Shown here one piece after another: positions 24,036-24,557 of a stretch of DNA of 64,000 nucleotides. Each line of letters starts with the position of its first letter. Position 1 is the stretch's first letter. The stretch is from Panopea generosa (Eukaryota > Mollusca > Bivalvia > Adapedonta > Hiatellidae), in the NCBI GenBank assembly GCA_029582155.1, contig CM055901.1, positions 57,410,740 to 57,474,739 of the forward strand, written 5' to 3'. Below the pieces are notes generated by a model. The model was not told the DNA's origin. It saw only the letters and a program-made list of their open reading frames with translations, and did no database searches. The position numbers and the translations under genes were made by a program.

Positions 24036-24189
24036 CTGTGTTGCCATCATACAATATTCGGGAAGTTATTATCCGCCCACACGGGGAGAAGATTTTCTCC
24101 AGTTCTGGCTGAGCAAGAGATTTAGGTAGGCCACAAATATACAAGTTAGCCCCCTTGATACCTTCACTGCTTGGTCTAGCATTTGATAC
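24036..24189 (-). CDS. ELAV/Hu-family protein, alternative RRM2 exon, copy 2 (downstream)
   Basis: A 154-nt exon, second of the duplicated pair, separated from copy 1 by a 214-nt intron. The acceptor is TACTTTTGTAG and the donor ACAG|GTTAGC, with the same phases as copy 1. It encodes [20 protein letters not shown], then [19 protein letters not shown] and [16 protein letters not shown]2 is LYICGL. It differs from copy 1 at 11 of 52 residues (my hand alignment, about 79% identity), and [11 protein letters not shown] resembles the canonical ELAV sequence FSxxGRIITSR more closely. A transcript containing both copies, or neither, would be out of frame, so the two should be mutually exclusive. No recognisable next exon (rest of RRM2 with RNP1 of the RGVGFIRF type) was found to the left within the window. 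Confidence 0.93.
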
Positions 24190-24403
24190 CTACAAAAGTA
24201 CAGCAGTGAAAATTCAATAAATTACTTTTCTTTTTTTTTTTTAAAAAAAAAATATATAAATATCTCTAATAATCTCTCTAAACGCTGCTTTTATTCTGGG
24301 TCCTTGTGCCCTATTTTGATCCCTTTTTTAGTAGATGAAGACAGCTGGTGGGTAGGGTATTAGATAGTGTTACTGTATCACAACGTAGTAGTTTTTGCTA
24401 TAC
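24190..24403 (-). other. 214-nt intron between the two alternative ELAV exons
   Basis: This intron begins GTATAG and ends TTTTGTAG. It contains, in the transcript sense, an AU-rich stretch followed by a long U run and a long A run (plus strand 24228-24266: 12 T, 10 A, then ATATATAAATATC). U-rich and AUUUA-type sequences are typical ELAV/Hu binding sites, so this is a candidate autoregulatory element. That role is inference. Confidence 0.7.
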
Positions 24404-24557
24404 CTGTATTTTGGTCATAAAGAATTCTGGAAGTTATGATTTGTCCACAACAAGAGAACATTTTTTCCAGATCCAATTGTGTAAGAGACTTGGGCAAACC
24501 ACTTATGTAGAGATTTGCACCCTTAATGCTTTCACAGCTAGGTCGTGCCAACGATAC
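24404..24557 (-). CDS. ELAV/Hu-family protein, alternative RRM2 exon, copy 1 (upstream)
   Basis: A 154-nt exon, first in transcript order of a tandem duplicated pair. The acceptor is GGTTCTTTTCAG and the donor ACAG|GTATAG; it enters in phase 0 and leaves one base. It encodes the RRM1-RRM2 linker and first half of RRM2: [20 protein letters not shown], then [19 protein letters not shown] and [16 protein letters not shown]2 is LYISGL. There are no stops or frameshifts. Compared with the second copy it carries extra cysteines (PSCES, FSCCGQ) and lacks the usual proline and arginine around FSP-GR, so it looks like the more divergent version. The length equals that of the single constitutive exon I infer for human ELAVL4 from the protein (52 residues, phase 0 to 1). 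Coding identity is certain from the protein; alternative use is inferred from exon phase. Confidence 0.93.

Follow-up and report, generated by a model that had tools for sequence, protein, structure and literature searches.

A tandem-duplicated exon pair covering half of RRM2, predicted to be spliced one copy at a time, in an ELAV/Hu gene of Panopea generosa

The ELAV/Hu family (HuB, HuC, HuD, and HuR; ELAV, FNE, and RBP9 in insects; elavl2 in bees) comprises neural RNA-binding proteins that have been studied extensively. For the human ELAVL proteins, the cited part of a review places their diversity in the N-terminus and the hinge and describes the RRMs as approximately 90% similar (PMC10620143). 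For bee elavl2, the cited sections of the report describe five alternative exons, of which two belong to an RRM2 loop and three to the hinge; the exon that encodes the second half of RRM2 can also be skipped, leaving a truncated RRM2 (PMC8553928). In those sections, the authors regard the splicing as limited to linkers and not affecting the RNA recognition domains, and the family members as minimally different in RNA recognition (PMC8553928). The nearest parallel found for the locus described here is U2AF1, whose exons 3a/3b (Ab) are tandem, homologous and mutually exclusive and lie in an RRM-like domain; the excerpts cited also report that inclusion of both exons leads to nonsense-mediated decay (PMC6821156). 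Mutually exclusive tandem exons in general are described, in the portions of four studies cited here, as often frame-incompatible and mostly ancient (PMC9741552, PMC5740500, PMC6071210, PMC7969005), and the human survey among them gives 377 clusters (60%) of mutually exclusive exons with frame-incompatible lengths (PMC5740500).

An ELAV/Hu locus was analyzed here in a 64-kb window, which is the whole stretch of DNA under study (C8:57410740-57474739) and belongs to an assembly of 1.47 Gb in 39 contigs. The minus strand of the window contains the 5' part of the gene, comprising E2, E3, copy A, and copy B. A search of the same assembly located E5 and E6 at 1.4 and 8.5 kb beyond the left window edge, in a locus (L009) that is identical to the window in their 260-base overlap. 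The features are as follows, with a slash marking the exon end in donor sites.

38981..39188, minus strand: coding part of E2, counted from the first in-frame Met and not from the true 5' exon limit; N-terminus and first half of RRM1, assigned by phmmer and donor score; donor CAG/GTGAGG.
26517..26620, minus strand: E3, 104 nt; second half of RRM1; ends in phase 0 at AAG/GTATGA.
24404..24557, minus strand: copy A, 154 nt; linker and first half of RRM2; RNP2 LYISGL; weak donor CAG/GTATAG.
24190..24403, minus strand: intron between copies A and B, 214 nt, GT-AG; contains an A-tract at 24226-24242.
24036..24189, minus strand: copy B, 154 nt; linker and first half of RRM2; RNP2 LYICGL; donor CAG/GTTAGC.
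1..24035, minus strand: start of the intron of approximately 25.4 kb (length from coordinates) between copy B and E5.
C8:57409100-57409334 (L009:8101-8335), same strand as E2 to copy B, outside the window: E5, 235 nt; rest of RRM2.
L009:905-1253, same strand as E2 to copy B, outside the window in the same assembly: E6; RRM3 and stop.

Joining E2, E3, either copy, E5, and E6 gave a protein of 349 residues composed of RRM1, RRM2, hinge, and RRM3 without an internal stop. When E3+A or E3+B was compared with solved relatives using phmmer, HuD, HuC, and HuR were the top matches (E 1.7e-43 to 4.3e-38), and PABP and Sxl (Sex-lethal) ranked below them. Over the exon itself, each copy is 61–67% identical (31–34 of 51 residues) to these proteins, A and B matching HuD at 34 and 33, HuC at 32 and 32, and HuR at 34 and 31 positions. 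Judged by its three RRMs and the hinge between RRM2 and RRM3, the gene belongs to the ELAV/Hu family. The 64-kb window yielded no further credible ELAV exon, no second ELAV gene, and no third copy of the exon. The intron between E2 and E3 holds a minisatellite array at 30667-32884 (46-bp unit, 48.7 copies), and another array with a unit of approximately 43 bp occupies the right window end (61103-64000). Tandem repeats of similar units are also present in the intron 3' of copy B (1993-3190, 11276-11782, and 19923-20367), with periods of 119–156 bp, often near 154; the agreement with the 154-nt exon length looks like a coincidence, as the exons have no notable match at those repeats. A tRNA-like Rfam match at 13600-13668 on the minus strand (30.5 bits against a threshold of 29, E 0.023) could be a tRNA-derived SINE.

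The initial annotation had described two adjacent 154-nt exons on the minus strand, and their positions, AG acceptors, GT donors, and open frames were all confirmed. The phases were also as it had claimed, with E3 ending in phase 0 and each copy in phase 1, and its 11 residue differences were recovered over 51 full codons (the 52 counted earlier took in a split codon). As tandem exons, A and B are adjacent, homologous, 154 nt each, of equal phase, bounded by GT-AG introns, and identical at 40 of 51 residues. The statement that inclusion of both copies or of neither breaks the frame holds with the true downstream exons E5 and E6. The splice forms containing A or B are 1050 nt each and have one terminal stop. 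Inclusion of A and B together gives a stop at codon 160, which falls on the fifth codon translated from copy B if the split codon is counted, and joining E3 directly to E5 gives a stop at codon 110. In both faulty messages the stop lies in an internal exon, and exon junctions remain downstream. Decay is the expected fate of a message with an early stop followed by further junctions, and hence both faulty forms are expected to be subject to it. Only one copy fits into a working message, since both or neither gives an early stop, and this incompatibility of reading frame is the sole mechanism of exclusivity visible in the sequence. We consider it likely, with good confidence, that this ELAV/Hu gene carries a tandem-duplicated pair of exons for the RRM1–RRM2 linker and the first half of RRM2, predicted to be spliced one at a time. 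Both exons would be used, with the choice between them varying by cell or stage, and messages mis-spliced to hold both or neither would be cleared by nonsense-mediated decay.

The whole assembly was searched with A and with B, and all first-look candidates were scored (15/15 and 11/11). There were 9 matches at E ≤ 1 for query A and 10 for query B in 1.47 Gb, and the A and B loci alone exceeded 50% identity. E3, E5, and E6 were each detected once on C8. These observations, together with a difference between A and B at 32% of bases, which is far above the allelic level, argue against an assembly error or collapsed haplotypes having set two alleles or loci side by side; we regard this explanation as extremely improbable, although a gene cluster on contig C12 that is present twice, inverted and almost identical, points to possible duplication elsewhere in the assembly. 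The cluster comprises three intronless three-RRM ELAV-like frames on the minus strand of C12 at 45.908-45.930 Mb (L011:3494-4717, L012:5034-6152, and L013:3651-4793; 408, 373, and 381 codons). A second set (L014, L015, and L016; 408, 372, and 381 codons), near-identical to the first and inverted, lies on the plus strand at 69.304-69.327 Mb; its distance to the end of the contig is approximately 0.1 Mb, and it could be a duplicate introduced by the assembly. The C12 genes resemble an ELAV-like family that was retroposed long ago. They were also considered as retrocopies of the present gene, for which they are too divergent (33–47% identity to A or B). No processed retrocopy of this gene, i.e., a fossil mRNA that shows which exon was used, was found in the assembly, and scans of viral and prokaryote collections gave 30 and 37 pattern matches, respectively, none of which is a relative.

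The two copies share 104 of 154 bases. Their 50 differences are distributed over codon positions 1/2/3 as 13/5/32 and change 11 of 51 residues. When the same 50 changes were placed at random in 20,000 trials, 29.0 ± 2.4 residues were altered and 86% of the trials acquired a stop; in none of them (0/20,000) did the number of altered residues fall to 11 or below. A dN of 0.17 was evaluated by NG86, for which dS was undefined due to saturation, and a dN of 0.13 by an experimental ML routine that returned a meaninglessly large dS; dN/dS is based here on a single short pairwise comparison with saturated dS. The saturated synonymous change and the near-equal distance of A and B from the Hu proteins indicate an old, constrained pair, and fit an old duplication of which both copies have been retained under protein-level selection. 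When drift of one copy was simulated (5,000 trials), the share of trials in which its frame stayed open and no more than 11 residues changed was 48, 14, 2.4, 0.24, and 0% at 15, 20, 25, 30, and 50 neutral changes, respectively. Neutral drift through most of one copy's history is hence unlikely, while late abandonment of one copy is possible, since 15–20 neutral changes still pass in 48–14% of trials.

This bears on an alternative in which a single copy serves as the true constitutive exon and its neighbor is a remnant or pseudo-exon seldom or never used in splicing. Relative-rate counts for A:B were 4:3 with HuD, 3:3 with HuC, and 5:2 with HuR; for three intronless relatives they were 2:1, 2:0, and 1:0. 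The HuR and intronless counts make B slightly more derived, which would suit such a remnant, as would the weak donor of copy A and the intact appearance of a recently abandoned copy in the simulation. However, both copies are open and retain their splice sites despite synonymous saturation, at 25 or 30 neutral changes few trials stay this intact, and the distances of A and B to HuD and HuC are nearly equal. We judge a remnant to be quite improbable; neither copy looks abandoned, and A appears slightly nearer to the common pattern.

The two copies resemble each other (40/51) more than either resembles HuD, HuC, or HuR, and seven residues are common to A and B and absent from these three proteins, which favors a duplication within the lineage of this gene. 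The seven shared residues do not date the duplication, since G13 is also shared by two of the three intronless relatives and K32 by one, as read by eye from alignment rows. Given the few sequences compared, some of the remaining shared residues could simply be typical of the phylum. The similarity to HuD was 65–67% for the exon pair versus 79–88% for the constant parts of the RRMs, as if the exon pair were freer to change than the constant parts.

The substitutions were placed on HuR by numbering exon residue 1 as V93, which agrees with the residue letters named in PMC5393604. The 11 differences then fall at Y95, S100, V102, S111, T118, K120, D121, M125, R128, R131, and Q141. R97, I103, Y109, I133, and L138 of HuR are given as RNA-binding or RNA-shifted in the cited part of that study (PMC5393604), and the equivalents of these five positions are the same residues in A and B. 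The proposal that the isoforms differ in their RNA-contacting surface thus survives only in part: the five contact residues are unchanged, and differences exist at S111, which is the fourth RNP2 residue (Ser in A, Cys in B), and at S100. The latter lies within 5 Å of a ligand that was modelled into the RNA cleft, according to the portion cited (PMC5393604), and a direct effect on RNA binding through S100 or S111 is possible. S100 and T118 are both described as phosphorylation sites of HuR in the excerpts cited (PMC5393604, PMC12586015). The S100 equivalent is Cys in A and Ser in B, and the T118 equivalent is Thr in A and Ala in B; this reciprocal pattern may be chance, as it was noticed post hoc in one gene. 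If one copy is spliced in at a time, either isoform would keep the core RNA contacts, and the exchange would alter the linker, a single position of RNP2, residues on or next to helix 1, and the equivalents of two HuR phosphorylation sites. Isoforms of this kind may be distinguished more by their regulation, partners, or affinity than by the bases they recognize. A bolder version, which we consider rather doubtful, is a neural ELAV protein in two forms with different phospho-switches (A keeping T118 and B keeping S100) that would answer to different kinases and direct different sets of mRNAs, with ELAV selecting which of its exons is used by way of the U-rich tracts next to A.

Scored with human frequencies, 6.3% of the minus-strand GTs in the window (n = 3,755) score as high as or higher than the donor of A, versus 0.8% for B; the weakness of donor A suggests that A could be the minor exon. 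Steric interference is not supported. The cited part of the human survey sets the distance from donor to branch point at under 50 nt (PMC5740500), whereas the near candidates for a branch point, at 18 and 29 nt from the B acceptor, are located 185–196 nt from donor A in an intron of 214 nt, which is too long for this mechanism. A far branch-point candidate, CTAAT, is present 171 nt from the acceptor and 43 nt from donor A, with an AG approximately 16 nt further on and more AGs after it; a distant branch point as in OGDH is unsupported. U12/U2 incompatibility is also unsupported, as the donors do not look U12-like by eye against the U12 consensus, and so is recursive splicing from the GTATC with which each copy begins, where the regenerated sites are weak (7–13% of GTs score as well).

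The A-tract at 24226-24242, 5' of the B acceptor, is exactly complementary over 17 nt to a U-tract at 26371-26402 shortly after E3, and pairing of the two would loop out copy A. Complementarity of at least 17 nt was obtained in 1.2% of 1000 control placements in the window, for an idea raised post hoc on low-complexity sequence in one species. The two tracts may possibly represent a selector pairing, a U-rich ELAV binding site, or chance. U-rich tracts are present in the introns on both sides of copy A, and ELAV proteins bind U-rich RNA according to the cited passages of two papers (PMC11551757, PMC10620143). This arrangement is consistent with a pair that serves control of level more than isoforms, where regulated double inclusion or skipping lets ELAV limit its own message. 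The early stops with downstream junctions after double inclusion and double skipping also agree with such control, as do the decay of the U2AF1 double-inclusion form in the excerpts used (PMC6821156) and, in the cited sections on the bee, stage-dependent splicing in the vicinity of the exon encoding the second half of RRM2, skipping included (PMC8553928). A poison exon, however, needs no conserved ELAV protein sequence, which A and B both keep. Control of level is in our estimate a possible but less probable main role; it may coexist with the use of A and B as alternative parts of the protein, and the likelihoods of the two overlap.

Returning to the pair as two exons spliced one at a time, the locus can be set against the known systems. 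The initial annotation had assumed a single exon at this place in other ELAV genes. The variants described in the sources cited lie elsewhere, in the N-terminus and hinge of vertebrate proteins and, in the bee, in the hinge, an RRM2 loop and, through skipping, the second half of RRM2. Both here and in bee elavl2, as far as the cited sections show, an exon boundary inside RRM2 carries alternative exons (PMC8553928), and the bee boundary is probably the same as the present one. The difference from the human and bee genes, within the parts of those reports used, is that here two homologous exons exchange half of RRM2. No mutually exclusive ELAV exon pair was found in the open-access literature as judged by titles and the start of abstracts, which is weak evidence. 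In the excerpts cited on U2AF1, the exchange concerns an atypical RRM for U2AF2 dimerisation, with isoforms 7 residues apart (PMC6821156), whereas the present one concerns a canonical RRM with 11/51 residues different in a pair known from sequence alone. The pair also resembles those of Dscam, voltage-gated calcium channels, and OGDH in its adjacent, homologous exons of similar length; it differs in mechanism, as docking/selector pairings for Dscam and distant branch points for OGDH are given in the portions of the literature cited, whereas the ELAV pair shows only its frame incompatibility.

One gene could thus yield two protein forms. If this is true, it would be another case beside U2AF1 of an RNA-binding protein that changes its own domain via tandem exons. 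The exon pair, if used, is a natural domain-swap experiment on RRM2, which lets one ask which functions of ELAV need the surface of RRM2 and which need base recognition.
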